Assembly: GCF_012516375.2 (NCBI RefSeq)
Contig: NZ_CP051204.2
Coordinates: 8,107,501 to 8,171,500, forward strand
DNA from: Chitinophaga oryzae
GTDB taxonomy: Bacteria > Bacteroidota > Bacteroidia > Chitinophagales > Chitinophagaceae
Length of the DNA: 64,000 nucleotides
Direction: 5' to 3'
Part shown: positions 8,842 to 31,998 of the stretch, one piece after another
Layout: every line of letters begins with the position of its first letter
Numbering within the stretch: the stretch's first letter is position 1
The notes under the pieces: generated by a model
Database searches by the model: none
What the model saw: the letters and a program-made list of their open reading frames with translations, nothing else
Told to the model about the DNA's origin: nothing
Made by a program: the position numbers and the translations under genes

Positions 8842-8896
8842 AGAAGTACAATATTAATCCTGTTTTATCAAGCGGGTTCAATCTGAAATGTTGCTT

Positions 8897-9709
8897 TTAA
8901 ATCAACATCTTATTGATCCGGCTCCTTTCTTTATCAATAAACCAGCCCCATTTATTGAAGTAATAAATAGCACTCCTTATGTGATGCTTGAGCAAGACAG
9001 GAGATTTATACGAACCTTTCGCAAATTCATGATAAATAGTCGCATACGGATAATATATTGTATCATATTTACTATGAATGCGCCTGGTAAGATCAACATC
9101 TTCCGTGTACAGGAAAATATTCTCATCAAATCCTTCTACCTCTTCTAAAACACTGGCCCGTATGAACATAAAGCAACCGGACAAGTTCGGGATTTTCATC
9201 ATATTGTCATAGCTCCGATGTCGCATTTCATACCGCAGCAGTTTCTGTTTGAATAAACCGCGAAGCGGCCCCGGGATAAATCTTCGCGCAATAAGATCAA
9301 ATGGGGTAGGCAACATCTTACATAAGTATTGTAGGGAGCCGTCCGGATACAGGGTTTTTACCCCTAATTGCCCAACATGCCCGTTCTGCTGCATATAATC
9401 AAAGATTTGCGGGAGGACGGTACGATCAAAATGCACATCGCCATTCAAAATGAGATTGTACTTTGTTTCCGTTCTGCTTTTCCTGATAGCAATGTTATGA
9501 GCAGCACCAAAACCGATATTTTTACCGTTATGAATGTATACAATCCTCTCCCTGTCAATATCATTCAATGTCCGTAACGAATCATCCGGAGAATTATCCA
9601 CCAGGTAAACCTTTACGTTCAGCGGGCTCTCAAGCACTGATTTGATGGCCTTTTCCACCATATTGGCAGCACTGTTATATAAAACGATAGATGCCACTAC
9701 ATCATACAT
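8897..9709 (-). CDS. Glycosyltransferase family 2 (rhamnosyltransferase-like)
   Basis: A 270-residue GT-A enzyme: N-terminal VVASIVLYNSAANM, nucleotide-binding stretch VYLVDNSPDD, GKNIGFGAAHNIA, and the metal-binding region around NLILNGDVHFD. Acceptor-side motifs LSGCFMFIRASVLEEVEGFDE and FLYTEDVDLTRR are typical of WbbL-like GT2 proteins that move deoxyhexoses. Donor and acceptor are not known. It is part of the minus-strand run, 42 bp downstream of the GT4 gene at 9752. Confidence 0.9.
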   Translation of the reverse strand: MYDVVASIVLYNSAANMVEKAIKSVLESPLNVKVYLVDNSPDDSLRTLNDIDRERIVYIHNGKNIGFGAAHNIAIRKSRTETKYNLILNGDVHFDRTVLPQIFDYMQQNGHVGQLGVKTLYPDGSLQYLCKMLPTPFDLIARRFIPGPLRGLFKQKLLRYEMRHRSYDNMMKIPNLSGCFMFIRASVLEEVEGFDENIFLYTEDVDLTRRIHSKYDTIYYPYATIYHEFAKGSYKSPVLLKHHIRSAIYYFNKWGWFIDKERSRINKMLI

Positions 9710-13851: not shown

Positions 13852-15129
13852 TTAATAAGAAGCTTTGGTTACGATACTGCTCTCATATAAGCCGGATAAA
13901 GCTTTCCCGTAAGCGGCCTCTGAATACTTTTCATTGAACGTCTTCTGCGCTTCTGCCCCGAACAATATCCTCAGGTCCGGCCGTTCAAACAACTGAATAA
14001 TGGCCGACTTTAATTGTGCCGTGATCTCGTCCGTGGATTTAGAAATCAATATCCCATTTTCGCCATTCCTGACAGCTTCCAGAATACCGGCAAAACCGGT
14101 CGAAATCAAAGGTTTCCCCATGTTCATCGCTGCCAGCAACGCCAATGGCATATCTTCATTGGTTACCGAGGGTAACATGAATACATCACATGCCTGGATA
14201 AAATCAACAGAATTGGTGCGATACCCTGCAAAGAAAACATAGCTCTGGAGATCATTTTCAGAAACGTACTCTTTCAGCATATCTTCATCTTCACCATTGC
14301 CTACCAACAATACCTTTAACTTCTTTGTTAAAACAGGGTGATTTCCATCCATGATTTCCTTTAAGGCACGTAATAAATATATCTGCCCTTTTCTCGCTGT
14401 CAGAAAAGCTACCTGAACCAGCAGAAAAGTATCCTCCGGCCATCGGGCCTCTGCTAAAATCTGAGCCCTGCCCATCGTAGCCGCCTCTAATTTCACGGTA
14501 TTAGGAATCTGGACTATTTTCACCGGATCGAAGTTTCGCTGGCTGGTCAAAGCCGACCGAGCCTCAGAAGAGGCTGTTATAAAAGAATATACATATTTAC
14601 CAATCAGTCTGTCATACCACCTTGCAAAGATATGAGGAGCCGGATAAGCGATATTGTTAACCTGATAGACTATTGAACGGATTCCCAACGCACGGCAGCA
14701 AAGTACAAACTGATTGCATGACCGGGCCCCCGGGTATCCACCATTATTCACATGAACAATATCCGGCTTCCTTCTGAGAAGGAAGCCCAGCATGACAAAT
14801 ATATTAAAAATAAAATATATACCTATGCGCTCTGCCAAGTAGAAAGGAACTTTTATACCTTTCTTTAAAAGCGGGTGAAGGCGCGAACATGAGATCCTAT
14901 GAAAAAAAGCTGTGTTGGAAAGTAGCGTAACAGGATGTGTTTTAGCGTTGACGCCCCATTTCCGCAGATCATTATTCAATCCATCAACATACGATTTGTG
15001 ATTTCTGAAGGCCAGGGTAAGATCAAACTGTTCATTCAGCAACTGGTTACTTAACAGAAAAGTCATCAACCGTTCACTTCCTCCATAAATATAACAATCC
15101 GTAAAAATCAACACATTCTTTTTAGCCAT
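13852..15129 (-). CDS. Glycosyltransferase family 4
   Basis: A 425-residue GT-B protein: VLIFTDCYIYGGSERLMTFL at the N-terminus (the GGxE acceptor loop), KIVQIPNTVKLE linking the two domains, LLVQVAFLTARKGQIYLLRAL and KVLLVGNGEDEDML in the donor domain, and the GT4 donor-binding region PSVTNEDMPLALLAAMNMGKP. Slightly long for the family because of an insertion near residues 85-115 that includes a hydrophobic stretch (FYLAERIGIYFIFNIFVML), which may press on the membrane. Donor sugar unknown. Confidence 0.9.
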   Translation of the reverse strand: MAKKNVLIFTDCYIYGGSERLMTFLLSNQLLNEQFDLTLAFRNHKSYVDGLNNDLRKWGVNAKTHPVTLLSNTAFFHRISCSRLHPLLKKGIKVPFYLAERIGIYFIFNIFVMLGFLLRRKPDIVHVNNGGYPGARSCNQFVLCCRALGIRSIVYQVNNIAYPAPHIFARWYDRLIGKYVYSFITASSEARSALTSQRNFDPVKIVQIPNTVKLEAATMGRAQILAEARWPEDTFLLVQVAFLTARKGQIYLLRALKEIMDGNHPVLTKKLKVLLVGNGEDEDMLKEYVSENDLQSYVFFAGYRTNSVDFIQACDVFMLPSVTNEDMPLALLAAMNMGKPLISTGFAGILEAVRNGENGILISKSTDEITAQLKSAIIQLFERPDLRILFGAEAQKTFNEKYSEAAYGKALSGLYESSIVTKASY

Positions 15130-15179: not shown

Positions 15180-16718
15180 TTACCCTTTACGAACAAATTT
15201 ATAATATATATTCTTTATATAGTCACAAAAAATAGTGGATGTAAAATAGTAAATGACCAATGCGATCAGCGCCGCAGTACCACCAGCAAACACGGTAAGC
15301 AACAGGTTCAGCTTGCTTTTTTCCTGCGGCAGGTAAGCCGATAAAGGAATCAATATCAAAAGCATCGCCAGGACGGGTAACACCGCTGGCCTTATAACCG
15401 TACCCAGGAAATTCAACAGATTCATTCGCAAAAATTTCAGGGAAATCCATAAATAGATCGCGCCACTCACCATAAACGACAGCAGGGTAAAGTAAGAGAA
15501 AGCCAAATACCCGATAAAGGGGAATAATAAACTAATACCACCCCAGAAAAGTACCGGTTGCAATATTGCCAGAAAATAAAGCGCCTTAATATTCTTATTT
15601 GCCACCATCAGCATCCCGGAAGGATAGGATATAAAAGCGAGGATGTTGCTAAGTACCAGTAATCTCACAATCTGTACACTATCAGAAAAATTGCTGCCAA
15701 CCCAGCTGAAAACGAAAGGTTTGCTCAGGCTGGCGATGGCAATTATCGGAAATACAACCGGCGGGAGCATTACGCAAAGAACGGTTTTATACAATGATCT
15801 GAGTCCCTTCTCGTCGTTAAGCGCCACAAAATGATTAAACCGGGCAGAGAAGGGATTAAAAAGCGTTCCAAAAATAGAGCGAAAGAAAGACAAACAGGTC
15901 AGACCGATGGAATAATAGGCTACTGCCTGTGCCCCGGACAGTCTTGCAATAGCATAAATATCCAGTTCATAGTATATGATCCATGACAGGGTGATAAAAA
16001 ACGTACTTAACGCCAGCGCTTTGATTTCCTTAAAAAGAACCGGGGAAAATCTGAGTCTTTTAAGAAAACTCATCAATGAAATCCCATATCGTTTCGTAGT
16101 CAGATAAAATGCATATAACAATCCGGTAGTTGTAACGATCTGGGTAAAAAGAAAATAGGGAACAATATCATAATGTCCCGGACGGAAAAAATAGAAAACA
16201 GATAATATTTTGCAGATACTCACTGCTATCAGTACTATCTGATAAATATAGTCTTCCAGACGTACGCCGAATATGACCTGCAGGGCGCGCTGCAATACAA
16301 CGTTAGGAGAAAAAATGGCGAGGATCAGCAGCAGTCTCTGGGCCACTATCAGGTTGCTGTCCTTATTGATCCCCTTTATCAACCATTCAGGATGGAAAGA
16401 CAACAACAACATAACCCCTGAGAAAATCAGGACCAGACAAAACAGGATAAAACAAATAAAGCCTAAAATATCGACTTCCCGCTCCCGGTCGCGTTTTGCA
16501 TAAGCTTCGCTGGCATACTTGTATCCGGCGCTTAAAAAGCCTAAATCAGCATAGGAAAGAAAAATAATGGCTGATACACAAATGGAATAAATACCATAAA
16601 CCCCTGGCTGGGAAGATAGCTGGGGAATAACAATAAAAAGAGAAAGCAGGTTAAGTACAATCGAAAGTATCTGCCAGAAATAAATGCGTATATAGTTTTT
16701 CGTATATGATTGTAACAT
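15180..16718 (-). CDS. wzx: Wzx-type polysaccharide flippase (MOP superfamily)
   Basis: A 512-residue protein with about 14 hydrophobic helices, the topology of the polysaccharide transporter branch of the MOP superfamily. The N-terminal segment IYFWQILSIVLNLLSLFIVIP and the central SWIIYYELDIYAIARLSGAQAVAYYSIG match the first and seventh/eighth helix regions of Wzx proteins. It would flip the undecaprenyl-linked repeat unit across the inner membrane before Wzy acts. It starts 2 bp after the stop of the 16721 gene. Confidence 0.9.
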   Translation of the reverse strand: MLQSYTKNYIRIYFWQILSIVLNLLSLFIVIPQLSSQPGVYGIYSICVSAIIFLSYADLGFLSAGYKYASEAYAKRDREREVDILGFICFILFCLVLIFSGVMLLLSFHPEWLIKGINKDSNLIVAQRLLLILAIFSPNVVLQRALQVIFGVRLEDYIYQIVLIAVSICKILSVFYFFRPGHYDIVPYFLFTQIVTTTGLLYAFYLTTKRYGISLMSFLKRLRFSPVLFKEIKALALSTFFITLSWIIYYELDIYAIARLSGAQAVAYYSIGLTCLSFFRSIFGTLFNPFSARFNHFVALNDEKGLRSLYKTVLCVMLPPVVFPIIAIASLSKPFVFSWVGSNFSDSVQIVRLLVLSNILAFISYPSGMLMVANKNIKALYFLAILQPVLFWGGISLLFPFIGYLAFSYFTLLSFMVSGAIYLWISLKFLRMNLLNFLGTVIRPAVLPVLAMLLILIPLSAYLPQEKSKLNLLLTVFAGGTAALIALVIYYFTSTIFCDYIKNIYYKFVRKG

Positions 16719-19138: not shown

Positions 19139-20179
19139 TCATATTAAATCCCAGGTAAGAGGAGTTCCCCTCTGTAATTTTTGCTTGCTCGGCCTTCCCA
19201 GCAAACGCTCATAATATTTAGGAGCTAAACCGTCTCCCGGCCTTATGATGCTGATATTTTCAGGTGTCAGCAGTTCTCCTTCATTGATATCCTTTATAAC
19301 ATAAACAGAGCGTTTATAGCGCAGGCTTTTTTCCTCTGCTTTCATTATTCCGTACTGTACTTCTCCCAAAGCAAGAAACGCCCTTTCTGTTTCAGTGACC
19401 AACAATTTAAATTCATCTGGCTCCAGCGAAAATGCACTATCCACACCACCTTCTGCCCTGCTGAGACAAAAGTGTTTCTCGATAATTCTGGCGCCCAATG
19501 CGACAGCAGCTACCGCGGCACCAACCCCCATTGTGTGATCAGATAAACCCACTTCACATTTAAACATCTCTCTCATATGCGGAATAGTAACAATGTTGGT
19601 ATTTTCAGGGGTGGCCGGGTAAGAACTGGTACACTTCAGCAATGCTAAATCCTGACAGCCATTACTTCTCAATACTCCTACGCTTTCCTCGATATCGCCC
19701 AATGCAGAAATACCTGTGGACATAATCACCGGTTTTCCCGTTTTTGCAATCTTTCTTAGTAGCGGATGGTGGTTGTTTTCAAAAGATGCAATTTTATGGC
19801 AGGGCGCGCCTAATTCATCCAGCATGTCTACTGCATTCTCATCAAATGGAGTGGAAAAACAAAGCACTCCCAGCTCCTTCGCATACTCGAAAATGGGTTT
19901 ATGCCACTCGTAGGGAGTCATAGCCTCTTTATACAGATCGTATAGATTCCGTCCTTTCCACAGTGAATGTTCATCTGTTATATCAAATAATCCACCCCTG
20001 TGATCAATTGTTAGCGTATCCGGAGTATAGGTCTGCAACTTAATTGCATGGGCGCCGGAGTCTGCTGCAGCTTTAACAATTTGCAAAGCCCTTTCCAATG
20101 ACTGGTTGTGATTTCCACTCATCTCTGCAATAACAAAAGGTCGACTATCAGGTGCAATGACGAAATTGGCAATTTTCAT
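19139..20179 (-). CDS. pseI: Pseudaminic acid synthase (NeuB family)
   Basis: A 346-residue NeuB-family enzyme that condenses phosphoenolpyruvate with a 2,4-diamido-2,4,6-trideoxy-hexose to give a nine-carbon nonulosonic acid. The TIM-barrel domain begins PFVIAEMSGNHNQSLERAL, the PseI form of the first strand; KLQTYTPDTLTI, STPFDENAVDML, KIASFE and GLSDHTMG follow in order. The C-terminal antifreeze-like SAF domain (about residues 285-346, RSVYVIKDINEGELLT) closes the active site. Length and motifs favour PseI over sialic (NeuB) or legionaminic (LegI) synthases. It follows the formyltransferase gene by 8 bp. Confidence 0.93.
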   Translation of the reverse strand: MKIANFVIAPDSRPFVIAEMSGNHNQSLERALQIVKAAADSGAHAIKLQTYTPDTLTIDHRGGLFDITDEHSLWKGRNLYDLYKEAMTPYEWHKPIFEYAKELGVLCFSTPFDENAVDMLDELGAPCHKIASFENNHHPLLRKIAKTGKPVIMSTGISALGDIEESVGVLRSNGCQDLALLKCTSSYPATPENTNIVTIPHMREMFKCEVGLSDHTMGVGAAVAAVALGARIIEKHFCLSRAEGGVDSAFSLEPDEFKLLVTETERAFLALGEVQYGIMKAEEKSLRYKRSVYVIKDINEGELLTPENISIIRPGDGLAPKYYERLLGRPSKQKLQRGTPLTWDLI

Positions 20180-20187
20180 GGAAAAAT

Positions 20188-21060
20188 CTATTTTAATAAA
20201 CCATTGATTCTAAATGTAATGGGATTTTCTGCTTTGATATCGCTTAATTGAAGTACACCGTTGGGCGTTTTAACATGCAGCGTCTGCTGATCTGTGGCAA
20301 GAATAGTCCCGTCTGCTATATCCTGAGCAAATCCCATATCAGAAAACGTAGCTTTATGAATGGACACTTTATGCCCCTCATAAAAAGCAAAAGCGCCCGG
20401 ATAGGGGGCCGCCTGCGCGCGTATCCAGTTCCGGATACGTTCCTTAAACCAGCTCCATTCGATCTTGCCGTCTTCCGGTGTCCTTTTTCCAAAGTAAGTT
20501 GCCTTGGCATTATCCTGCTCTACCAGCGTCACTTTCTCCTGTGCTATTTCAGTCAGCACTTCCTGCACCATGGAGGGATACAAATAGCTGAATTTTTCGA
20601 GGATAGTAGCACCGGTATCATCAGGTGATATGCTGACCTCACGCTGTTTCAATATTTTACCATTGTCAACAAGCTCGTCAATCAGATGTACGGTTACCCC
20701 TGTCACCGTTTCCCCATTAATAATAGCCCACACGTGCGGGGTCCTTCCCCGATACTTTGGCAATAGTGAACCATGAATATTTATCGCAAATAAAGCAGGA
20801 AGATCAATAAGGTCCTTTTCAATAACAAAAAGATAATTGACAGAAAGTAGTATATCGCATCGGATATCCTTAACAAAATCGGCGGTTTTGTTGCCCCTCG
20901 GATTACCTGCAAAACAAGGGATCTGATGTTCATTACAGAATGAAATAATTGATACCGACTTTTTATCTGTCAGGACTGCCTTCACCCGGTAAGAAGACCA
21001 AACCTGTTTAAGAACATCCAGCCCCAGTCCACCGCTTCCCAGGAATACTACCTCTAACAT
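20188..21060 (-). CDS. Formyltransferase of the pseudaminic-type pathway
   Basis: A 290-residue N10-formyl-tetrahydrofolate-dependent formyltransferase. The catalytic Asn-His-Asp set is intact: N94 and H96 in NIHGSLLPKYRG (with the SLLP loop) and D132 in LVDNGKIL. A C-terminal Fmt/ArnA-like subdomain has IRAQAAPYPGAFAFYEG. Known relatives formylate amino sugars (ArnA, WbtJ/VioF types). Between pseG and pseI this position normally holds pseH, the 4-N-acetyltransferase; none is visible here. I infer that it formylates the 4-amino group of the PseC product, which becomes the 7-formamido group of the final acid. Not the tRNA formyltransferase: too short and in a sugar operon. Confidence 0.85.
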   Translation of the reverse strand: MLEVVFLGSGGLGLDVLKQVWSSYRVKAVLTDKKSVSIISFCNEHQIPCFAGNPRGNKTADFVKDIRCDILLSVNYLFVIEKDLIDLPALFAINIHGSLLPKYRGRTPHVWAIINGETVTGVTVHLIDELVDNGKILKQREVSISPDDTGATILEKFSYLYPSMVQEVLTEIAQEKVTLVEQDNAKATYFGKRTPEDGKIEWSWFKERIRNWIRAQAAPYPGAFAFYEGHKVSIHKATFSDMGFAQDIADGTILATDQQTLHVKTPNGVLQLSDIKAENPITFRINGLLK

Positions 21061-21066
21061 AATAAC

Positions 21067-22046
21067 TTATAACGTTTTAAAAATTTGAATCAACCTGCTG
21101 TCGGACTGTCCATCAAAGATTGCTTGCTGAAGAGAAAGGGCATCGCTTGCCTGACGGCCGCCGATTTGCCCAAAACGATCAAAATCGAACGCCAATCCTG
21201 ATTCAAGAAAATACTTCCCTATATCCCGCTGATTGTCCGCAATCATATGCAAATAAAGCTGTCCACCGACGCTTAAGTACTCAAAAGCAGTACTGCTCGG
21301 CGGACAAACAGCTACTCCACATTGTCGCATTAAATTACACATATCGATAGCCGTCAGGTTTTTACGCAGGTATATCGATTTGTTTTGCCCCCCTATAAAT
21401 GCCTCCAGTTCTTCCAAATATTTATACGCACCTCCGATAACTACATAAAAGTCATCAATCGTCTCACTTTTTAACGCCTTTGACAAAACAGACAAGGTAT
21501 CATTATTCGGGTCGGCTCCTCCCATACTGATTAACAATTGGTTTTGCCGACTTGCCAACGCCCTGTTTCTGGCTGCATGCAGGAACGGCTCCCGGAGCAG
21601 GGCATAGGCAGGGCCCAAATAAAAATCAGTATCCGGTGCTGCACTATAGTCCGCAGGGGTAATTCCACCAGCATGATTTATTACAGCATCGGCATAAAAG
21701 TGATACTGGTGGATATCGTCTATACAAACAAGTTTTGCCCCTGATGTTTTTACAACACATTGATAATCAGATGAAAAATTATACCCATCAAGCACCATGA
21801 TGTCTTTATCCGTAAAAAAAGCAGCACAGTGCCGGGCGTCCGCCAAATAATCAGTCTGGGGGGGAGTTCAATTACCTGGGCTCCTGACAACAAAATTTCC
21901 TTCCGAAGGGTATCCAGAGGGGCCTGAATTAAAAAAAAACAATCAAAATCATGCCTTAACATGTGTGCCAGCGCACAGGTACGTATTACATGACCTAATC
22001 CTATCTTGCTATTTCCATCTGCCCGGAAAAAAACGCGTGATTTCAT
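21067..22046 (-). pseudogene. pseG: UDP-sugar hydrolase PseG, frameshifted at a C7 tract
   Basis: PseG removes UDP from the 2,4-diamido-trideoxy-altrose intermediate. The N-terminus is typical (VFFRADGNSKIGLGHVIRTC, with the GxGHV nucleotide loop). The frame breaks after AQVIELPP at seven consecutive C (minus strand, 21858-21864). Eight C would give LPPQTDYLADARHC and continue without a break into the remaining 260 codons, which carry the rest of the family: DGYNFSSDY, DDIHQYHFYADAVINHAG, LISMGGADPNND, and CPPSSTAFEYLSVGG. As written the ribosome would stop after 98 codons. A one-base change in a homopolymer can be slippage-based phase variation or an assembly error. Confidence 0.85.
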
Positions 22047-22141
22047 TAAGAAACTCCTTTTGGTCTTCGCCCCTACGAAAAATATAATTAAACGATGTGC
22101 AAACTTACTAAAGTTATATCTTGAAATGAATATAAAATTAT

Positions 22142-23461
22142 TTATATATATTTTCTGAATACGGGTTTCACCGGGCTGCCGGTTAACAGTTTTTCGTACC
22201 CTACGGCCAGACCTTCTTTATATCGCTCCAGGGATGCGCGGAATGCTTCCGCAAAAAAGTCTATGTCATCGGTAGTATGACTGAAACAAGGAACGAAAGA
22301 GCCCTGAAAAAGCACTCCTCTGGCAATCATTTCCTGTAAAAACAATGTTCTGAGTCCCATACTGGGCACCCCGGACGCATCTTTAAAGATAAATACCGGC
22401 ATCCAGTTACAGGCAGCCATCTGTACCTGGTCATTTAACCCACTTGCTGAAATTTCAGCGTTCACCCTGGTTAGGAAATAATCCCCGATCCTATGATTAT
22501 GCTTAATCACATTTTTTTCCTGAAACTCCTTAATGGTCGCCAGCCCTGCTGCAATGGCATGTGTTTCTCCCCCATGTGTGGTGGACGTCAGGAAAACCTT
22601 CTCCTGCCCCTCATTTTTTATTCCGCCTAAATCCATAATCTCCCGTTTGCCAGTCAAAGCGCAGAAAGAAAAGCCATTGGCAATACCTTTTCCCCAGGTA
22701 GCCAGATCCGGCTGCACATTATATTTTTTAATGGAACCCGGGAAATCTGTCTTGAAGCCAGTGATCATTTCATCTACGATGTATAACGCTCCATGTTTGT
22801 GCGCAAGGTCAATAGCCTGCTGCAAATAGTTTTCTGACAAGCCAAAGTTTTTCTCCGGTTCAGAAATTACGCCTGCAATCTGACCGGGATACTTTTCAAA
22901 AAGCTCCGTCAGGGAAACCAGATCATCTGATTTGTAGGTTACAGACAATACAGCATTTTCAGGAGGCACCCCTTTAGAACACGCAGTTTGTCCGATAAAC
23001 CAATCATCATAAGAATAAAAAGGATGGTCCGAAGGGAAGGCTACCATTCTCCTGCCAGTATAGGCCCTTGCCAGTTTAATGGCTGCTGTGGTTACTGTAG
23101 ACCCGTTTTTGGCAAATTTTATCATCTGATGACAAGGTATCAATGCCAGAAAAGCTTCCGCCATTTCCATTTCGATATAAGCGGGACGCTGAAAATTCAC
23201 CCCCTTGGCCAACTCCTCCCTTACCCTTTCCAGTACAGGCTCATATGCGTGTCCCAAACTTACAGATGTCAACCCCATAGAACAATCAAGAAATTTATTG
23301 CCATCTATATCCCATACATGTGCCCCTTTTCCATACGCAATAGCTGCCGGTGATAACTGGGGAAACTGGTCGTCGCCTTTAGAGTAAGTATGGGCACCAC
23401 CCGGAATGAGCTCATGAATTTTAGCTCTGTATTGATTAGACATATTGAAGTCAGTGATCAT
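22142..23461 (-). CDS. Class III PLP aminotransferase (glutamate-1-semialdehyde aminomutase-like)
   Basis: A 439-residue fold-type I enzyme related to HemL. Motifs in order: IPGGAHTYSKGDDQFP, GAHVWDIDGNKFLDC, FAKNGSTVTTAAIKLARAYTGR (phosphate-binding loop), YIVDEMITGF (cofactor Asp) and the PLP lysine in TWGKGIANGFSF. In heme synthesis this family makes aminolevulinate, but the gene is locked between spsF- and pseG-type genes, so amination or rearrangement of a sugar-derived aldehyde or ketone is more likely. Similar genes occur in other nonulosonic acid clusters with no firm role. Either the first ATG or the MSNQYR ATG 18 bp later could be the start. Confidence 0.85.
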   Translation of the reverse strand: MITDFNMSNQYRAKIHELIPGGAHTYSKGDDQFPQLSPAAIAYGKGAHVWDIDGNKFLDCSMGLTSVSLGHAYEPVLERVREELAKGVNFQRPAYIEMEMAEAFLALIPCHQMIKFAKNGSTVTTAAIKLARAYTGRRMVAFPSDHPFYSYDDWFIGQTACSKGVPPENAVLSVTYKSDDLVSLTELFEKYPGQIAGVISEPEKNFGLSENYLQQAIDLAHKHGALYIVDEMITGFKTDFPGSIKKYNVQPDLATWGKGIANGFSFCALTGKREIMDLGGIKNEGQEKVFLTSTTHGGETHAIAAGLATIKEFQEKNVIKHNHRIGDYFLTRVNAEISASGLNDQVQMAACNWMPVFIFKDASGVPSMGLRTLFLQEMIARGVLFQGSFVPCFSHTTDDIDFFAEAFRASLERYKEGLAVGYEKLLTGSPVKPVFRKYI

Positions 23462-23469
23462 GTTTGAAA

Positions 23470-24228
23470 TTAATTATCGTTTAATAGGGACTTGATGTAA
23501 CCCTCGTTGTGAATGATATTACTGTTGAGATTCAACAGGTCGGGATGCAACAGCAGATAGGCAACATACTCTTTCCATCCAGCCTTGCTTCCCAGCTGCA
23601 TAATTAGTTGGGTGACCAGCTCCAGGTCAGCAGGTTCATCGACTGTTAAACGGATATTTCCATAATCCGTTTCATGGGTTACATTATCAGATAAAAATAT
23701 TCCACCACCTTTAAAGGTAGAGTTACGCCATATATAGGGCGTTACATGTTCCCGGTCTGACTTTAGTTTGGCTTCCGTCCATGCCTTTTCCAGAGCATGA
23801 AATGTAAACACCTCAACGTCCATGCCATCGGGAAAGGTAGTGGCCATAGTATTGGACGCATAATCCAGTCGTTTTGTTACTGCTGCTGAGACTACTTTAT
23901 CAATTATTTCCGGATCTATCAGCGGACAATCCGATGTCAGCCGGATGACGTAATCCGGTCTTTCTTCTTTAACGGCATTATAAAACCGGTCTAGAACGTC
24001 AGTGGTATTTCCCCGGTAGCTATCGATACCCAGTGCAGCCGCTACCTCACAAATGGCCTCCACCCCTGCTTCATTGGTAGTTGCTACTATTATCTTATCC
24101 GGCTTTTGGGCCAGCGCTATTCTTTCCAGGTGAATCTGCAATAATGAAATATCATTGATGCTTTTCAGTACTTTGCCCGGCAAGCGGGTAGACCCCACCC
24201 GGGCTTGGGTAACAGCTATTATCTTCAT
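23470..24228 (-). CDS. SpsF-like cytidylyltransferase family protein
   Basis: A 252-residue nucleotidyltransferase: IAVTQARVGSTRLPGKVL at the N-terminus (the R-x-G-S-x-R-L-P-G-K nucleotide loop of SpsF/CMP-KDO synthetase relatives), KIIVATTNE, and IRLTSDCPLIDPEIID with the metal-binding aspartates. Distinct from pseF, which is also present, so the locus has two CMP-sugar-synthetase-like proteins. It may activate a second sugar or regenerate an intermediate. The start overlaps the stop of the aldo/keto reductase by 4 bp (ATGA), so the genes are translationally coupled. Confidence 0.85.
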   Translation of the reverse strand: MKIIAVTQARVGSTRLPGKVLKSINDISLLQIHLERIALAQKPDKIIVATTNEAGVEAICEVAAALGIDSYRGNTTDVLDRFYNAVKEERPDYVIRLTSDCPLIDPEIIDKVVSAAVTKRLDYASNTMATTFPDGMDVEVFTFHALEKAWTEAKLKSDREHVTPYIWRNSTFKGGGIFLSDNVTHETDYGNIRLTVDEPADLELVTQLIMQLGSKAGWKEYVAYLLLHPDLLNLNSNIIHNEGYIKSLLNDN

Positions 24229-25094
24229 TTCCAGTTGACAGGATTTAATAAGTGGGGTTCTTTAACAAGGATTTTATCAATTTCCGAGAAAACAGACCTA
24301 TCCAACGGTACCTTTAGCCCGTCAATATTATGGGTTAATTGCTCAACCGTATCAACGCCAATTAATACTTTATCTATGAGGGGATTGTTATAAACATACT
24401 GCAGTGAAAGCGTCCCCATATCAACAGCATGACCTCTGGCTATCTCCTCTATTTTTTTCAGGTAAGGCACCAGTGGCAAAAGGTTTCGGGGAATTTGTTC
24501 CGGGCACATAAAGAACAAGCCTTGTAAATATACAGAGCGCACGTGCAGCTCTTTTCCTGCTGCTTTGGCTTTCTCCAGGAGTGCTCCTTTTTGCGAGGAA
24601 TTATCCAATAGGTTATAGGGAATCTGAATGACATCACAACGGTCATCCTCAATAACTTCCAGTAACTCGTCATTAGTGTAGATGGACACGCCTAGCTTCC
24701 TGATCATCCCTTTGCCCTTCAAAGACACCAACTCGTTCAATAATTCAGGAGATGCCTTATACATCCGGAAACTATGAAACAGGTATGCTTCTAAAGTGGT
24801 TAACGCTAAAACCGATAAGGTCTGCTTTACATGATCTGAGACTGACTGGCTTCCAAACTCATGAGAAATTTTAGATATAACATCAAAACTGGAATTCTTC
24901 TCCCTGCTGTTGTGGTATTGACCGATGAGTTCCTGGGCTGAACCATAATCTTCTGCTGTGTCCAGCGTTTCAATTCCTGTTTTTCTGGCAACCCGAAGAA
25001 TTTCAAATACCTCCCCGGGTTGCGGTTGGCCATTCCTATTGCTTATCCCGTAACTTAAACCAAACTGGACTGTGCCCAGTATTAACTTCTTCAT
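24225..25094 (-). CDS. Aldo/keto reductase
   Basis: A TIM-barrel NAD(P)H-dependent oxidoreductase of about 289 residues: MKKLILGTVQFGLSYGISN, catalytic Asp/Tyr in LDTAEDYGSAQELIG, Lys in ISKISHEFG and a His-bearing AYLFHSFRMY. The closest known relatives are the aldo/keto reductases found with SpsF-like proteins in sugar clusters. I chose the ATG at 25092-25094; a GTG 21 bp upstream is also in frame but would add residues before the conserved first strand. Its substrate is presumably an intermediate related to the Pse-like acid or a side branch shared with the class III aminotransferase. Confidence 0.85.
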   Translation of the reverse strand: MKKLILGTVQFGLSYGISNRNGQPQPGEVFEILRVARKTGIETLDTAEDYGSAQELIGQYHNSREKNSSFDVISKISHEFGSQSVSDHVKQTLSVLALTTLEAYLFHSFRMYKASPELLNELVSLKGKGMIRKLGVSIYTNDELLEVIEDDRCDVIQIPYNLLDNSSQKGALLEKAKAAGKELHVRSVYLQGLFFMCPEQIPRNLLPLVPYLKKIEEIARGHAVDMGTLSLQYVYNNPLIDKVLIGVDTVEQLTHNIDGLKVPLDRSVFSEIDKILVKEPHLLNPVNWK

Positions 25095-25217
25095 AAAGGT
25101 ATTTAAGTGAGTCACGATAATCGTCCTCTTTATCGACGCTTAAAGTGAAAACACCCTCTATAAATCAGTTCTTAAAGCAAAAATAAAGTTCCCGGGTATT
25201 AAGTGGGGCTAATGGCG

Positions 25218-25910
25218 TTATTTGTTTAATTCATATTTAAGTTCTGCCAGTTTCCAGTCTTCTTCCGTGTCAATATCCTGGAATTCAGTAAAGTTCAATT
25301 CTATTATGCCTGAATTAGGGGTAAACAAGGCATTATGTTTCATGAATCCGGCCACTTTGACCCAATAAAATTGACCGCAGTCATGATAGGCATCGGGAAT
25401 GTCCTGAGAACGCGTCTGCATATACTCCGGCCACACCATCGACACTTTATTGGTAGCGCTGTCTACATTTAATGCACGCATAATGGGATAAGAAAATCTG
25501 GACGCTGGGAAAACGGATATATAATTTTTTTCATTCATAAGCTCGTACGCCAATCTGAGCTTTTCCGGAGTGGTGAATGGTGCAGTAGCGAAAATACAAC
25601 AGAGGTTATCAAATTCAAGGTTCTGCTTTTCCTTATAACTGTCCAGTACTTCTTTAATAACGTCTGCAATCGTCGCATAATCGTCAGAAGCTTTAGCTGA
25701 TCTTAAAAAGGGCACTTTGGCACCAGCAGCCATTGCAATCTCGGCAGTTTTTTCATCATCCGTAGAAACCATTACCTCATCAAATAAACCAGACTCAATA
25801 GCGGCATGAATTGAATAATGAATAATAGGTTTACCAAGAAAATCCTTTGTGTTTTTTCCCGGAATCCGCTTACTTCCACCACGAGCAGGTATTAAAGCAA
25901 CATTTTTCAT
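25218..25910 (-). CDS. pseF: CMP-pseudaminic acid synthetase (cytidylyltransferase)
   Basis: About 230 residues. IPARGGSKRIPGKN at residues 7-20 is the CTP-binding loop of acylneuraminate cytidylyltransferases. VMVSTDDEKTAEIA and IFATAPFTTPEKL follow, and the end carries FQDIDTEEDWKLAELKY, typical of PseF/NeuA. The enzyme activates the nonulosonic acid as its CMP ester for transfer. The start is taken as the ATG at 25908-25910, preceded by GGGAG at a fitting distance; a GTG 36 bp upstream is less likely. It lies between pseC and the aldo/keto reductase. Confidence 0.92.
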   Translation of the reverse strand: MKNVALIPARGGSKRIPGKNTKDFLGKPIIHYSIHAAIESGLFDEVMVSTDDEKTAEIAMAAGAKVPFLRSAKASDDYATIADVIKEVLDSYKEKQNLEFDNLCCIFATAPFTTPEKLRLAYELMNEKNYISVFPASRFSYPIMRALNVDSATNKVSMVWPEYMQTRSQDIPDAYHDCGQFYWVKVAGFMKHNALFTPNSGIIELNFTEFQDIDTEEDWKLAELKYELNK

Positions 25911-26075
25911 AAAGATTTGCTCCCTTAGTTCGGTTATATAGATCACATCCCCTGATATGGTTCAACGGGAATTACATGACGTTAATACAAATGAAAAGCC
26001 AGGCCTATCAATAGAACAGGTCTCCAAATTTAGTAAAAAAAATCCTAACATGTAAAAATGCAAGGATATTTAAGC

Positions 26076-27290
26076 TCATTTCGAGGTTAAAAACTGATTT
26101 ATCTGATCAATAACGAATGTTTGTTCTTTTTCCGTCAAACTAGGAAACATTGGTAAGCTCAAACATTGGCTATAGTATTTTTCTGCCAATGGAAAGTCCC
26201 CGGGTTTCCAGCCTTGTTGGCGATAATAAGGCATCAGATGTGTCGGAAAATAATGTACCTGCGCGTAAATATTCTTTTCCTTCAGATAATTATATAATCC
26301 CAGCCTATCCGCTAGCTTAATGACATAGAGGTGATAAGCGTGTTCCAGGTCACGTTCTTTCAACTGTAACTGTTGGCATTCAATTTTGTCATTATGCTGA
26401 AATGCCTGATCGTAGACCCTGGCGATCTCTACCCTGCGCATCAATCCTTCATCTGCCCTTTGAAGCTGGCTTAGCCCCAGTGCAGCCTGAAAATCGGTCA
26501 GGCGGTAATTGAACCCCAGGTCCTGCATTTCCATATACCAGCCAGGAAATGTACCTGTTTCCATTCCCGGTACGCCGGTAGCCATCTCCAGGGAATTACT
26601 GAAATCGTTCTGGTTTTTGGTTATCCCGTGCGTCCTGAGCGTCAACAGTTTTTTATACAACGTTTCATCATTCGTAGTAATCATCCCGCCTTCTCCTGCA
26701 GCAATGTGTTTTACCGGATGAAATGAATAAATGGCGAGGTCTGCATAAACCCCATTTCCGGCCATTTGCCTTACACCTTTACTATCGGTAAACCAGGCAC
26801 CTGGTGCATGACAGGCATCCTCAATAATCCACATTCCGTATTCATCAGCCAACGTTCTGAATGCCTCCATATCTACCGGATACCCTGCAAAATCGACCGG
26901 GATGATTCCCTGAAAAGTATTTCGGGGATGTTGTTCCAGCAGCGCTCTTACCTTATTAATATCCAACAGGAAAGTGTCCGGATCAATATCTGCAAAAACC
27001 ACTTCACCGCCACAATAACGCACACAGTTAGCCGAGGCTGCAAATGTGATCGGTGTTGTAATTACGCGGTCGCCGGGTTTCACGCCAGCGGCCATGGCGG
27101 CCAGATGTAATGCGGCTGTACCATTAGACACTGCTACCGCGTATTTTGCGCCTATGTAGGCCGCAAATGCATCTTCAAACGCCTTAATGTTAGGACCTTG
27201 TGTAAGATAATCAGATGTTAAAACACTGGTTACCGCCTGTATATCCGAAGCTGTTATTTCCTGTCTTCCGTATGGTATCGGTTTCATCAT
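26076..27290 (-). CDS. pseC: UDP-4-amino-4,6-dideoxy-N-acetyl-beta-L-altrosamine transaminase
   Basis: A DegT/DnrJ/EryC1-family PLP aminotransferase of about 404 residues. It starts PIPYGRQEITASDIQAV, as in PseC. VSNGTAALHLAAMA binds phosphate, IIEDACHAPGAW holds the cofactor Asp, and the PLP lysine is in YSFHPVKHIAAGEGG (about K194). It transfers an amino group from glutamate to C4 of the PseB product. It begins 7 bp after the pseB stop. Two adjacent ATG codons (27285-27290) are the likely starts; an upstream TTG is not needed. Confidence 0.95.
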   Translation of the reverse strand: MMKPIPYGRQEITASDIQAVTSVLTSDYLTQGPNIKAFEDAFAAYIGAKYAVAVSNGTAALHLAAMAAGVKPGDRVITTPITFAASANCVRYCGGEVVFADIDPDTFLLDINKVRALLEQHPRNTFQGIIPVDFAGYPVDMEAFRTLADEYGMWIIEDACHAPGAWFTDSKGVRQMAGNGVYADLAIYSFHPVKHIAAGEGGMITTNDETLYKKLLTLRTHGITKNQNDFSNSLEMATGVPGMETGTFPGWYMEMQDLGFNYRLTDFQAALGLSQLQRADEGLMRRVEIARVYDQAFQHNDKIECQQLQLKERDLEHAYHLYVIKLADRLGLYNYLKEKNIYAQVHYFPTHLMPYYRQQGWKPGDFPLAEKYYSQCLSLPMFPSLTEKEQTFVIDQINQFLTSK

Positions 27291-27296
27291 TAGCAA

Positions 27297-28313
27297 TTAA
27301 ATGGTAAAAGTTGGGTCAACATGGTCTTTTATAAGCGTACGAATCTCGTCTACAGATACCCATTGATCGTTTTCTCCTGAGTTGTAACGAAATCCCTGAG
27401 GCACTGGTTTAGCATTCAGCTGCTCTACAAAGTCTTTGACTTTGAAGGAAAGGTTCTGTGGCAAAATGGCGTAGTATCTTCCCAGATCGTAAGTGCTAAA
27501 GGAATCCGAAGTAGTAATCATTTCTTCATGAATTTTCTCGCCGGGACGAATGCCCACAACCCTGTGTTCACAGTCAGGTCCGATAGCCATTGCCACATCA
27601 GTAATTTTGTAGGAAGCAATTTTCGGAACGAATATTTCGCCCCCCCAGGCAGAATCCAGGGCATGCAATACCATGTCCACTCCCTCTGTAAGTGTGATAT
27701 TAAAACGGGTCATCGTTGTATCCGTAATGGGTAACACACCTTCCTTTCTTTTATTGAGAAAGAAGGGGATAACAGAGCCATTGGAGCCCATTACATTTCC
27801 ATACCGTACTACTGAAAATTTGATGGGGTTGGTGCCTTTGATGTTATTAGCGGCTACAAACAGTTTATCTGAGGCCAGCTTCGTTGCACCATACAGGTTA
27901 ATCGGAGCAGCAGCCTTATCAGTAGACAATGCAACCACCTTCTGTACACCGGTTTCCAAAGAAGCGTTAATAACATTTTCTGCCCCCATGATGTTGGTCT
28001 TGATACATTCCATCGGGTTGTATTCCGCAATTGGCACATGTTTCATCGCTGCAGCATGAATCACATAATCAATTCCTTTTAAAGCCCTTCTCAGCCTGTC
28101 AAAATCTCTCACGTCACCAATGAAGAACCTGATCTGAGGATACTTGGACTCCGGATAGTCCATCGCCATCTGAAATTGTTTCTGCTCATCACGGGAGTAA
28201 ATGACAAGTCGTTTAATCTGTGGCCAGCGCTCCAGGATGATTTTTGTGAATGCTTTACCAAAAGAACCAGTACCACCGGTTATAAGAAGGCTTTTGTTAT
28301 TTAAATCCAACAT
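27297..28313 (-). CDS. pseB: UDP-N-acetylglucosamine 4,6-dehydratase (inverting)
   Basis: A 338-residue soluble extended short-chain dehydrogenase of the FlaA1/PseB class. NADP loop GGTGSFG is at residues 13-19. The catalytic set known from Helicobacter FlaA1 is in place at the same numbers: D132 and K133 in STDKAAAPIN, Y141 and K145 in LYGATK. It dehydrates UDP-GlcNAc and inverts C5, giving the 4-keto L-arabino sugar that commits carbon to pseudaminic-type acids. It is short, without the membrane domain of the CapD/PglF type. First gene of the nonulosonic acid block, 68 bp after the Wzz-type gene. Confidence 0.97.
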   Translation of the reverse strand: MLDLNNKSLLITGGTGSFGKAFTKIILERWPQIKRLVIYSRDEQKQFQMAMDYPESKYPQIRFFIGDVRDFDRLRRALKGIDYVIHAAAMKHVPIAEYNPMECIKTNIMGAENVINASLETGVQKVVALSTDKAAAPINLYGATKLASDKLFVAANNIKGTNPIKFSVVRYGNVMGSNGSVIPFFLNKRKEGVLPITDTTMTRFNITLTEGVDMVLHALDSAWGGEIFVPKIASYKITDVAMAIGPDCEHRVVGIRPGEKIHEEMITTSDSFSTYDLGRYYAILPQNLSFKVKDFVEQLNAKPVPQGFRYNSGENDQWVSVDEIRTLIKDHVDPTFTI

Positions 28314-28381: not shown

Positions 28382-29470
28382 TTAAGCCAATTCTTCTCTC
28401 AAAACTTTATTCCCGATTAAGACCAATACACATAACATTCCTCCCAATATGCCACCCAGCGCAATGCCTTTCAGCTTGCCAAACTTTCTTTTATCAAGGG
28501 GAAGAATAGGCTTATCAACTATCTGAATAACGGGCATATCCTGTGCCATGGCAATCTTACTTATTTCCAGGTTTTTCACAACCTCAGCATACATTGTCTG
28601 CAGCACTACTTTGTCACGCATCACTAATTCGCTTTTGACATTTGCCACCTGTCTCGCAGGATTCTGGTTGATATCCTGCACCCGTGCCGTTTCGTAGGTC
28701 TTCCGGTTCAGTAATACTTCCATTGAATCGGCCTGGGCCTGCAGGCGGTCCACACTTGTAGTGGAACGTTTGGTCTTTGTTTCTATATAGAAGCGGGTGG
28801 CTTCTCTAACCAATGTTTCTACAAATTCTTTCGAAAAGGTTTCATTCAACGTTGTACAACCCACCACGATGAAACTGAGCTTTTTATCCGGCCTTGCCAC
28901 ATTCAGATGGTTCGTCGCTATTGCCCCCTGTATTGTATTCAGTACGCTATCCTGTTGCCGCGAAAAACTACTTCTGTCTGCATTCAAAGGAAAACTTACC
29001 TTTTTTAACAGGGAATCTTTTTCCCAGCCCTGCCTCGTCTTATATGCATCCATATAAAGTTCGGCGAGCGTGGATTGTTTATTGTCATAAGTTACCGCAG
29101 ACAGTAAGGCTTTTTCAATCATCAGCCGGGAACGAAGGAACTCCATAATGTTATCCCCCTCAAAAAGGCCGCTACCGCCTTTTCCTCCCAGGTCCAAGCC
29201 GAACTGACTCGCAATTCCCATGTAAGCGCCCAGTGGGTTTGAATTACTTTCTTCCAGCACAAAACTTAATTCCGCTTTATAAGTTGGCTTAGACATGAAA
29301 GCGGCTGTTAGCCCCAGCCCACCACCAATCAATCCGGATAATATTACAATAATTTTTTTACGCCATATATATTTAGAGAACTCTTTTAACTTAAGAATCA
29401 GGTCTTTGAAGGAAATTTCCTCTACAAATTTATTTTTTTCGGCATTAGTTGTGGTATGTGGCCCGCCCAT
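28382..29470 (-). CDS. Wzz-type chain-length determinant protein
   Basis: A 362-residue inner-membrane protein. A first membrane helix (IIVILSGLIGGGLGLTAAFM, about residues 40-59) is followed by SKPTYKAELSFVLEE, the start of the Wzz domain. A long periplasmic helical region follows (about residues 70-325), then PVIQIVDKPILPLDKRKFGK before the second membrane helix near the C-terminus. No Walker motifs or tyrosine cluster, so it is not fused to a BY-kinase. It would set polymer length and connect the Wzy step to the exporter encoded just upstream (20-bp gap). Confidence 0.88.
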   Translation of the reverse strand: MGGPHTTTNAEKNKFVEEISFKDLILKLKEFSKYIWRKKIIVILSGLIGGGLGLTAAFMSKPTYKAELSFVLEESNSNPLGAYMGIASQFGLDLGGKGGSGLFEGDNIMEFLRSRLMIEKALLSAVTYDNKQSTLAELYMDAYKTRQGWEKDSLLKKVSFPLNADRSSFSRQQDSVLNTIQGAIATNHLNVARPDKKLSFIVVGCTTLNETFSKEFVETLVREATRFYIETKTKRSTTSVDRLQAQADSMEVLLNRKTYETARVQDINQNPARQVANVKSELVMRDKVVLQTMYAEVVKNLEISKIAMAQDMPVIQIVDKPILPLDKRKFGKLKGIALGGILGGMLCVLVLIGNKVLREELA

Positions 29471-29490: not shown

Positions 29491-31998
29491 CTATTTTATA
29501 GTATTCAGAATTGTTACTATTACCAGTGCAATAGACGCCAGCCCGCTTGCAATGGCAACCCCTTCCTGGCCGTTCAAACCTTTCTTTTCTTTCTTCGTTG
29601 GCACATATATTTCTGCCCCTGGCTTCACCTTGGGGTACGAGTTAAAAAAGAATACCTTCTTTGTGTTCTTTACCTCGCCATTGGCGTACACAATATAGCT
29701 GCGTCTTTTCAAAGCCTGAGCTGTAAACCCACCTGCACCATGGATATAATCTTTAAAGTTATATACTTTATCAAATCTCACTTTCTTGGGAAAGTATACT
29801 TCGCCAAACAACTGAACAGTTTGCAGCTTCTTGGGAATTTTGATAATATCCCCTTCTTCCAGGAGAAGGTCATACTTGGAACCAGGATGCTTCATGATTT
29901 GCTCCAGATTGATACCCAACAGCTGCTCCTTCCGGTCTACCGCAGCCTGTACCCTGGCAATATCCGTACTGTCCTGTAATTTATTATAGAACACCTGCAG
30001 CTTGTTAGCCAACAGCATACTGTCTCCTTCATTGATAAACGTTTTCCGCATCATCACTGCGCCTTCAGCATAAGCTTCCGGACGCAATCCGCCTGATCTT
30101 TTGATCAGGTCTGAAATACGCTCAGAACGGCTATTTATGGTATAATCACCCGGGTAAACCACCTCTCCGCTAACCATCACGTTGGCTTGCGACGCATAGG
30201 CCGGAGAACGGCGCACGACCACCTCATCAAAAGGTTGTAATACAAAGGCTTTTGCTTCCGGGTTATTGCTGAGGTCTGCATTGATACTAAATCGCTCCAC
30301 AATTGCCTTGGTGCTGTCTTTTGCGTCATATACACCACCGCGTTTTCTCCGGGAGATTTCCACTTCCTGCACAGAAGCCGCGTCTGTAAGGCCTCCTGCC
30401 AGCAGGATCAGATCTTCAAGGTGCATACTGTCTGCATAGTTGAAATATCCTGGTTTATTAACCTCCCCGTCGATCCTTACTTCATATTCTTCCCGGAGAT
30501 CAAACTTGGAGTATATCATTACACTGTCCTCCTTCTGCAAACGCACATCTGATTTGCCAGACAGAACGTCCTGCACACTGAAATTGATGAAGGAAGGAGT
30601 ATAATCGGCCTGCAAACGCCGGATCAGACCTCTTGACAAGGCAGCATTTTCTTTCACACCATCAGCCCGCTTCATCAGGTCCTTAACGGTCATATTATTT
30701 TCCAGGGCATAGTTACCAGGGTGAAATACCGCACCGGCAATAGTTACGCGGTTGCTGAAGCGGTTGAGGATAGAATCGATAAAGAACTGGTCCCCTGACC
30801 GTACTTTGAAAGAAGCGATCTCTCCCGCCGGAATGTTGACTACCTCCCTTTCTTTATTGTTTACCCTGTAGGCACGTATTACATCCCTGAAAGAAAGATC
30901 TGTGAAACCACCAGCATAATCGAGGATATTCTGAAGGGTTTCATTTTCCTTCGCTTCAAAAATAGCCTGGCGTTTAACCTCTCCGGTCAGCTCCACTCTG
31001 GTCTTATAGGGATTCACCTTTACGATATCCTGTTCCTGCAACACAATATTATTACTGAGGTCGCCCCTTACGAGGAAGTCATAGAGATCAAACCTGGCAA
31101 CTGGCGAGCCGTTTCGGATAACCTGGATATCCCGGAAGGAGCCATTTTCACCAGGCCCCCCGGAAACGTACAATGCGTTGGCGACCGTGGCCAATGACGG
31201 AATGGTGTAAGAACCCGGGTTTACCACTTCTCCAATCAATAATACCCGGATACTGCGGATACTACCGAGAGAAACCTGCACAAAAGTGTTACCACTCCCA
31301 ATACCACTATATATGGTGGCCAACTGCCTGGTGATACGGTTTTTAGCTTCCTCCATGGTTATCCCGTTTACATAAACCGGACCGAGATTGGGAATACGGA
31401 CATAGCCGTCCGGCGTTACCTTAAGCCGGTGTTGTACCTCGGAATAACCATATACATCTATCAGGACTTCGTCATTTGCTGCCAGACGATAGTTAGGCGG
31501 GGTAGGCATCTTTAGATTGGGCTCGAACGTCAGGTTTTTGTTGTTGAACAGTTCGGACCCAAAAATGCGCTTCCGTCTTTTTTCCCGCTCCCGCTCCTCC
31601 TTACTCTTTGTCCGGTCCTTCTTTTCTGTGGTGGAGTCCATTAACTCGTCATCATCGTCTAGCTTGCGGGTACCCGCCTCATCTTCATTCCCTCTGTTAC
31701 TGTTCTCCTTGCTCTTTTGGCTCTGCTCTAATTCCCTGTCCAGCCCCATCTGTTGGATGCGGCCTTTCAGCTTGGTCACCTCAATGTCCGGTATACCCTT
31801 CTGCTGTGCATAGGTATCAATATCAGAAAAAGCAATATTATTCTTTTTCATATCCGCCACCAGCTGACGAATCTGATCATCGCTCAGATTGTCCACCTTC
31901 ATCTGCCGGATTTGTTCTTTGGATAATGCTGGATTCTGCGCGGTCACACAATAGCCAATAAACAGGAAAAGCTGTAGCAGCAATAATTTTCTGAACAT
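29491..31998 (-). CDS. SLBB-domain polysaccharide export protein (Wza type)
   Basis: An 835-residue exported protein: signal peptide (MFRKLLLLQLFLFIGYCVTAQ), a short N-terminal helical domain, a charged low-complexity linker (about residues 95-140, rich in K, E, D, R), then the poly-export domain (NYRLAANDEVLIDVYGYSE) and about five or six SLBB repeats, each with a VTIAGAVFHPGNY- or VMVSGEVVYPGDY-like strand. A C-terminal hydrophobic helix (VAIASGLASIALVIVTILN) follows. The family forms the outer-membrane channel for capsule and exopolysaccharide; the Bacteroidota forms are long, as here. First gene of the locus, with a 540-bp leader region upstream. Confidence 0.92.
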   Translation of the reverse strand: MFRKLLLLQLFLFIGYCVTAQNPALSKEQIRQMKVDNLSDDQIRQLVADMKKNNIAFSDIDTYAQQKGIPDIEVTKLKGRIQQMGLDRELEQSQKSKENSNRGNEDEAGTRKLDDDDELMDSTTEKKDRTKSKEEREREKRRKRIFGSELFNNKNLTFEPNLKMPTPPNYRLAANDEVLIDVYGYSEVQHRLKVTPDGYVRIPNLGPVYVNGITMEEAKNRITRQLATIYSGIGSGNTFVQVSLGSIRSIRVLLIGEVVNPGSYTIPSLATVANALYVSGGPGENGSFRDIQVIRNGSPVARFDLYDFLVRGDLSNNIVLQEQDIVKVNPYKTRVELTGEVKRQAIFEAKENETLQNILDYAGGFTDLSFRDVIRAYRVNNKEREVVNIPAGEIASFKVRSGDQFFIDSILNRFSNRVTIAGAVFHPGNYALENNMTVKDLMKRADGVKENAALSRGLIRRLQADYTPSFINFSVQDVLSGKSDVRLQKEDSVMIYSKFDLREEYEVRIDGEVNKPGYFNYADSMHLEDLILLAGGLTDAASVQEVEISRRKRGGVYDAKDSTKAIVERFSINADLSNNPEAKAFVLQPFDEVVVRRSPAYASQANVMVSGEVVYPGDYTINSRSERISDLIKRSGGLRPEAYAEGAVMMRKTFINEGDSMLLANKLQVFYNKLQDSTDIARVQAAVDRKEQLLGINLEQIMKHPGSKYDLLLEEGDIIKIPKKLQTVQLFGEVYFPKKVRFDKVYNFKDYIHGAGGFTAQALKRRSYIVYANGEVKNTKKVFFFNSYPKVKPGAEIYVPTKKEKKGLNGQEGVAIASGLASIALVIVTILNTIK

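Follow-up and report, generated by a model that had tools for sequence, protein, structure and literature searches.

A two-domain formyltransferase in the PseH position of a pseudaminic acid operon of Chitinophaga oryzae

We analysed a 64,000-nucleotide stretch (the window; positions 8107501–8171500 of contig NZ_CP051204.2, GCF_012516375.2) of the single-contig, 8.36 Mb genome of Chitinophaga oryzae, which carries a minus-strand operon (28313–19139) reading, 5' to 3', pseB, pseC, pseF, a three-gene insert, pseG, a formyltransferase gene and pseI. As judged from sequence, this operon probably makes cytidine monophosphate (CMP)-pseudaminic acid for a surface polysaccharide, with an N-formyl group instead of an N-acetyl group at the 4-amino position. 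A preliminary description of this DNA had proposed that the formyltransferase carries out the PseH step, and this is well supported by the exchange of the enzyme for a PseH-type GNAT in a close relative, its conserved place before pseI, its natural fusions to PseG and its invariant catalytic triad. Since the swap is reciprocal, the slot adjoins pseI and the triad is invariant, 4-N-formylation of the PseC product is the likely step.

In the canonical CMP-Pse5Ac7Ac pathway, the enzyme order is PseB-PseC-PseH-PseG-PseI-PseF (PMC7910423), and the window holds homologues of PseB, PseC, PseG, PseI and PseF, with the formyltransferase in place of PseH and with pseG split. By this established order, an enzyme in the PseH slot would meet UDP-4-amino-4,6-dideoxy-L-AltNAc; the substrate, the product and the formyl donor are predicted. 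PseB and PseC would convert UDP-GlcNAc to UDP-4-amino-4,6-dideoxy-L-AltNAc, the 290-aa formyltransferase would transfer a formyl group from 10-formyl-tetrahydrofolate to its 4-amino group, PseG would remove uridine diphosphate (UDP), PseI would add phosphoenolpyruvate to yield 7-formamido pseudaminic acid (Pse5Ac7Fo), and PseF (or an SpsF-like enzyme of the insert) would make the CMP sugar. Pseudoalteromonas distincta KMM 638 is known to have such an acid in its polysaccharide (PMC3210612).

For gene calls in the window we used NCBIfam equivalog cut-offs together with Pfam, and four minus-strand genes scored above their equivalog cut-offs: pseB, the UDP-GlcNAc 4,6-dehydratase (5-inverting) (27297–28313; TIGR03589, 509 bits, cut-off 408), pseC, the UDP-4-amino-4,6-dideoxy-L-AltNAc transaminase (26076–27296; TIGR03588, 467 bits, cut-off 424), pseF, the CMP-pseudaminic acid synthetase (25218–25946; TIGR03584, 288 bits, cut-off 206), and pseI, the pseudaminic acid synthase (19139–20179; TIGR03586, 493 bits, cut-off 340). 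The preliminary description had recognised pseB, pseC, pseF, pseG and pseI; this holds for these four, while pseG is homologous but is split between two reading frames. Only one PseI/NeuB match at E ≤ 1e-60 was found in the whole genome. These scores bear on the nature of the acid: Halorubrum has been reported to have a legionaminic pathway that includes a putative formyltransferase (PMC6137143), but with PseB, PseC, PseF and PseI each over an equivalog cut-off, it is highly improbable that legionaminic acid or another isomer, and not pseudaminic acid, is made here.

The formyltransferase gene (20188–21060, minus strand) encodes a protein with the Pfam domains Formyl_trans_N and Formyl_trans_C, in which Asn94, His96 and Asp132 align with the catalytic residues of ArnA; all 86 relatives compared, the window protein among them, keep this triad. 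Both domains and the catalytic Asn-His-Asp place it in the 10-formyl-tetrahydrofolate-dependent ArnA/Fmt type. An intact triad and a position between pseG and pseI had both been described beforehand and are borne out, and the placement among formyltransferase types proposed there as a check gives a two-domain, ArnA/Fmt-like enzyme: its best match in the PDB is ArnA (129.5 bits), with Fmt at 111 bits and PseJ at 53.7 bits. Its scores lie below the NCBIfam cut-offs for PRK06988 (194 bits, cut-off 316), ArnA (183, cut-off 777) and fmt (166, cut-off 201.5). Where databases name these formyltransferases, the name is mostly methionyl-tRNA formyltransferase. The tree of the family was a quick one with a long outgroup branch and places the window protein only approximately.

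Two known systems can be compared with this enzyme. ArnA formylates a UDP-4-amino sugar using 10-formyl-tetrahydrofolate; unlike the N-terminal formyltransferase domain of ArnA, the window protein stands alone, lies in a Pse operon and scores below the ArnA cut-off. PDB entries 6ci2, 6ci4, 6ci5 and 6edk are named formyltransferase PseJ, which we take to be the pseudaminic acid formyltransferase of Anoxybacillus and to perform the PseH step, and thus to share the role proposed here. The PseJ chains have 192–217 aa, whereas the window protein has 290 aa including Formyl_trans_C and is nearer to ArnA and Fmt. We therefore rejected the window protein as a PseJ orthologue, given 53.7 bits versus 129.5 bits to ArnA and the extra C-terminal domain; PseJ was also absent among the 50 fold-comparison matches listed for it, which by itself proves nothing. 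A formyltransferase acting for PseH is accordingly already known in principle as PseJ, and the lineage described here is another one. The suggestion that the gene arrangement may define a compact enzyme set thus does not stand as a new concept, since PseJ entries exist, but the lineage differs in being two-domain and ArnA/Fmt-like.

Within Chitinophaga, we found a reciprocal exchange in which the same backbone carries the formyltransferase in one genome and a PseH-type GNAT in the other. Among 79 genomes sampled from the genus, a close PseI (at least 60% identity) occurs in seven and an orthologue of the formyltransferase in the window genome only (477 bits; next 147). The comparison genome (G261, loci L172 and L299), taken as C. 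qingshengii, is collinear on both sides, with identities of 90% for PseI, 95% for PseB and 92% for the aminotransferase of the insert; its pseG and pseI are separated by a 56-bp gap, and the formyltransferase is absent. It has a 148-aa GNAT 19 kb downstream of pseI, where a 639-aa ABC-F-like gene (read from sequence) and an aldo/keto reductase gene leave a gap of 688 bp, and in the window genome the same two genes lie 73 bp apart without the GNAT. We searched this GNAT against the open reading frames (ORFs) of 180 fetched loci for pseudaminic or other nonulosonic acids and of the window, and these were the only sequences searched. The 36 matches at E ≤ 1e-5 comprise 24 PseG-GNAT fusions, two fusions of GNAT to X (a protein considered below), one formyltransferase-GNAT fusion, seven single ORFs adjoining pseI and two further single ORFs; 34 other GNAT ORFs from these loci gave no match. 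As its matches are mostly to fusions and pseI-adjoining ORFs and to none of the other 34, the C. qingshengii GNAT is of the PseH kind.

The same backbone takes still other forms in the genus. One locus has PseG with a separate PseH (L175, 148.7 bits), one has a PseG-GNAT fusion (L176), one has X and a HAD-type protein (L173), and two (L174 and L177) combine a PseG-GNAT fusion with a second formyltransferase. In these two, the fusion is followed by this short, 220-aa formyltransferase and by a protein that we read as a deacetylase of the PIG-L type (L174:10532–11879; L177:10535–11885), a possible route of acetylation, de-acetylation and formylation. The short formyltransferase of L174 resembles PDB 1zgh (254 bits), none of its 24 matches is PseJ, and it apparently represents a third lineage. 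In L175, a KAS III-like protein (8409–9410, read from sequence) lies between PseH and PseI, perhaps pointing to an acyl group other than acetyl.

The position of the formyltransferase is conserved well beyond this genus. Scanning contigs yielded 131 relatives, of which the 80 best were examined: pseI lies directly downstream in 76 loci, a contig edge follows in three and X stands between the two genes in one. Directly upstream lies PseG (38 loci) or X (33), and the enzyme is fused to PseG in two loci (L106:8993–10879 and L134:8939–10867) and to X in one (L129:3754–5202); a formyltransferase-GNAT fusion was also present (L122:10001–11365). X is found elsewhere in the locus in L108, L121 and L138. 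By record titles, the hosts are chiefly Bacteroidota, together with two Treponema and a single member each of Margulisbacteria, Chloroflexi and Kiritimatiellae.

Neither the window nor the genome yielded a recognisable PseH, in keeping with the preliminary description, which had found no GNAT-type PseH and had named a co-regulated PseH gene elsewhere in the genome as one finding that would contradict its proposal. No window ORF of at least 90 aa matched a GNAT profile at E ≤ 1e-5, and no window ORF matched the C. qingshengii GNAT at E ≤ 0.01. A search of the whole genome with the PseH profile TIGR03585 gave 15 matches at E ≤ 10, the best at 41.9 bits and none over the cut-off of 93.1. Likewise, PseH was over the cut-off in none of 40 searched genomes with PseG and the formyltransferase, the window genome included and the genome of L117 lying outside the search. 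Searched in 14 control genomes, TIGR03585 gave matches in all 14 and a score over the cut-off in one. Because this profile is a blunt tool, the eight best matches of the window genome were inspected one by one: no other gene matching a pathway profile lay within the 13-kb stretch around each, one stretch (L296) has a second GNAT, and the closest of the eight to the C. qingshengii GNAT reached E 0.003.

Several observations weigh against a formyltransferase that has replaced PseH in a working pathway. TIGR03585 is insensitive, the PseH parts of Chitinophaga PseG-PseH fusions scoring 41–52 bits, similar to the 41.9-bit GNAT of the genome, so the genome-wide absence of PseH depends as well on the eight matches inspected, with seven weaker ones (≤22.8 bits) outside the inspection. 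The site of the acyl step in C. qingshengii is one that we infer. A GNAT lies within nine genes of the formyltransferase in 19 of 80 loci as matched by a broad, iterated PseH profile, most of these GNATs standing two to seven genes before it or two to eight after it, and a GNAT directly matching that of C. qingshengii at E ≤ 1e-5 is present in just two of the 80 (L108 and L122). One of the 55 phylum loci described below (L179) has both the formyltransferase and a GNAT, and pseG is not one open frame in the window genome.

Alternatively, an unrecognised GNAT elsewhere might acetylate the 4-amino group, with the formyltransferase acting on another amine, such as the product of the insert's aminotransferase or a nucleotide sugar that is later de-acetylated. 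The nearby GNATs in 19 loci speak for this, as do L174 and L177, whose gene content suggests just such an acetylate, de-acetylate, formylate route. However, 61 of the 80 loci have no such GNAT nearby and 78 have none like that of C. qingshengii at the same threshold, the insert's aminotransferase is present in only 15 of 80, and the reciprocal swap is accompanied by a window genome in which no PseH-type GNAT was recognised. We therefore regard this alternative as quite unlikely, and favour formylation of the PseC product by the enzyme in the PseH slot.

We sampled 395 Bacteroidota genomes, of which 56 have a PseI over the cut-off, and fetched 55 loci besides the window. The formyltransferase is present in five (394–428 bits). 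The acyl step is otherwise represented by a PseG-GNAT fusion (26 loci), an X-GNAT fusion (two), a separate GNAT (11) or a weaker, other formyltransferase (one), and ten loci lack an acyltransferase by the profiles used. With the last profile, eight of the 52 loci with PseG or X show no acyltransferase; one of these eight, L225, has a GNAT beside PseG by the first profile. Separately, distant formyltransferases (142–162 bits) adjoin a PseI/NeuB relative below the PseI cut-off in L240, L241, L242 and L244, and may belong to other formylated nonulosonic acids.

The second subject of these loci is X, a 185-aa protein of the PseH fold that has lost the coenzyme A (CoA)-binding loop and usually occupies the slot of PseG. 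It was found in L120 (9445–9996), in 36 other formyltransferase loci, and in L173, L184–L186, L191, L195, L201, L224 and L227. The 80 formyltransferase loci contain PseG (40), X (37) or neither (three), and never both; the 56 PseI genomes divide into 48 with PseG only and eight with X only, with none having both or neither. The chance of the latter split would be 7e-10 if genomes were independent, which they are not, and six of the eight X genomes belong to one family. PseG (TIGR03590) had no match at E ≤ 1e-20 in these eight genomes, and in a further search of 37 genomes (L110 left out; L146, without X, taken in) none was over the cut-off, with four weak matches, the best at 49 bits in the genome of L146. 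Parsimony on the formyltransferase tree gives ten switches between PseG and X, two of them forced by well-supported branches. In three of the 55 phylum loci (L197, L204 and L206) neither is local, and PseG lies on other contigs of their genomes.

The best Foldseek match of X is PseH (4ri1, E 3.5e-14), the GNAT family PF13420 matches 22 of 22 X proteins, and those sources that give X a name call it a RimJ/RimL or GNAT acetyltransferase. X thus shares the fold of PseH but lacks its CoA-binding GxG loop and stands in place of PseG, not of PseH. Of 34 GNATs from the same loci, 29 have one and 32 the other of the two loop glycines, whereas none of 46 X proteins has glycine at either alignment column; we relied on these columns since a loose regular expression hit six of the 46 X proteins and missed six of the 34 GNATs. 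Invariant residues in 22 X sequences include R23, D26, R34, N35, Q37, R42, Q43, H90, E99 and H166 (numbered as in L120, from Algoriphagus yeomjeoni). L184, L185, L186, L195 and L201 have another GNAT next to X or fused to it, and as X occurs with a partner of the PseH kind, X is not the acyltransferase. The first profile had labelled X as PseH-like, and the reading that this neighbour of the formyltransferase, present in almost half of the loci, is PseH and that PseH was therefore not replaced was rejected on account of the lost CoA loop in the alignment and the occurrence of X beside other GNATs. The pattern gives slightly better than an even chance that X is a UDP-sugar hydrolase that evolved from an acetyltransferase and replaces PseG. 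In L173 (6277–9448), L224 and L227, a HAD-type protein, and not a recognised acyltransferase, lies between X and pseI, and L173 and L224 also have a 641–656-aa SDR/ATP-grasp-like protein (read from sequence).

The split of pseG, the UDP-sugar hydrolase gene (21067–22046, minus strand), went without mention in the preliminary description, as did the insert. Its N-terminal part (residues 1–62, from 22046) is in a different frame from the rest, and the C-terminal ORF (21067–21846) alone scores 134 bits against TIGR03590, with a cut-off of 153.55. Aligned to the 329-aa, single-frame PseG ORF of L172, the N-terminal part corresponds to residues 1–62 (82% identity) and the C-terminal part to residues 68–326 (73%). 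The frames part at a C7 run (21858–21864), which consists of C when read on the coding strand; the window has just one other C/G run of at least seven. Because the sequence gives no single open frame for pseG, this strain may have an inactive enzyme set or may have been mis-sequenced here. The cluster might thus be silent and make no pseudaminic acid, through decay or a phase-OFF state at the C7 run; the two frames and the C7 run at the break speak for this. On the other hand, the remaining eight genes from pseB to pseI are all open, both halves of PseG are well preserved relative to C. qingshengii at the identities given, and a lone homopolymer break also looks like sequencing error. Silence is therefore unlikely, and the split may stem from a sequencing error or from a slippable tract and not from a lasting loss. 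The identical formyltransferase is listed for two contigs; the longer has 8,511,252 bases and perhaps belongs to a second assembly of this strain or of one very close to it.

The insert (22142–25115) comprises three minus-strand genes: an aldo/keto reductase (24225–25115; PF00248, 117 bits), found in all six other fetched Chitinophaga Pse loci, an SpsF-like second cytidylyltransferase (23470–24228; PF02348, 103 bits) that scores under the cut-off of all six NCBIfam families listed, and a class III aminotransferase of the PRK06209 family, named glutamate-1-semialdehyde aminomutase (22142–23461; NF004856, 541 bits, cut-off 486). The insert as a whole also occurs in these six loci. Of the 15 formyltransferase loci with this aminotransferase, 13 lack a PseF label. 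A fusion of aldo/keto reductase and SpsF has been reported from a Vibrio Pse cluster (PMC7371886).

The surroundings, all on the minus strand, read as those of a surface-polysaccharide locus to which the operon would belong. Directly upstream of pseB is a Wzz-type chain-length protein (28382–29470; PF02706, 28.9 bits, cut-off 25.5), preceded by a polysaccharide export (Wza/SLBB) protein (29491–31998; PF02563, PF10531). Past pseI are two proteins without a Pfam match, followed by a 512-aa probable Wzx-type flippase (15180–16718; read from sequence, no Pfam match, collinear in L172 at 88%) and glycosyltransferases, including one of the Glycos_transf_1 family (13852–15129; PF00534).

Geobacillus flagellin islands have Pse genes without PseH, and some have formyltransferase genes (fmt2, two type III strains) (PMC5109656); the passages of that paper on the islands do not tie the formyltransferase to the missing PseH step. 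The literature searched, which was poor in subscription journals, gave no account of this formyltransferase lineage in this role, of its breadth, of the swap or of X.

These results suggest that the formyltransferase gene may mark those Bacteroidota that make 7-formamido pseudaminic acid. They also show the acyl step to be an interchangeable module of the Pse pathway: on one backbone, genomes of a single genus have this formyltransferase, PseH as a separate protein, PseH fused to PseG, or such a fusion accompanied by a second, short formyltransferase. If X does replace PseG, a large family labelled as ribosomal-protein acetyltransferases would be nucleotide-sugar hydrolases, and such hydrolysis would be a new activity for the GNAT fold.

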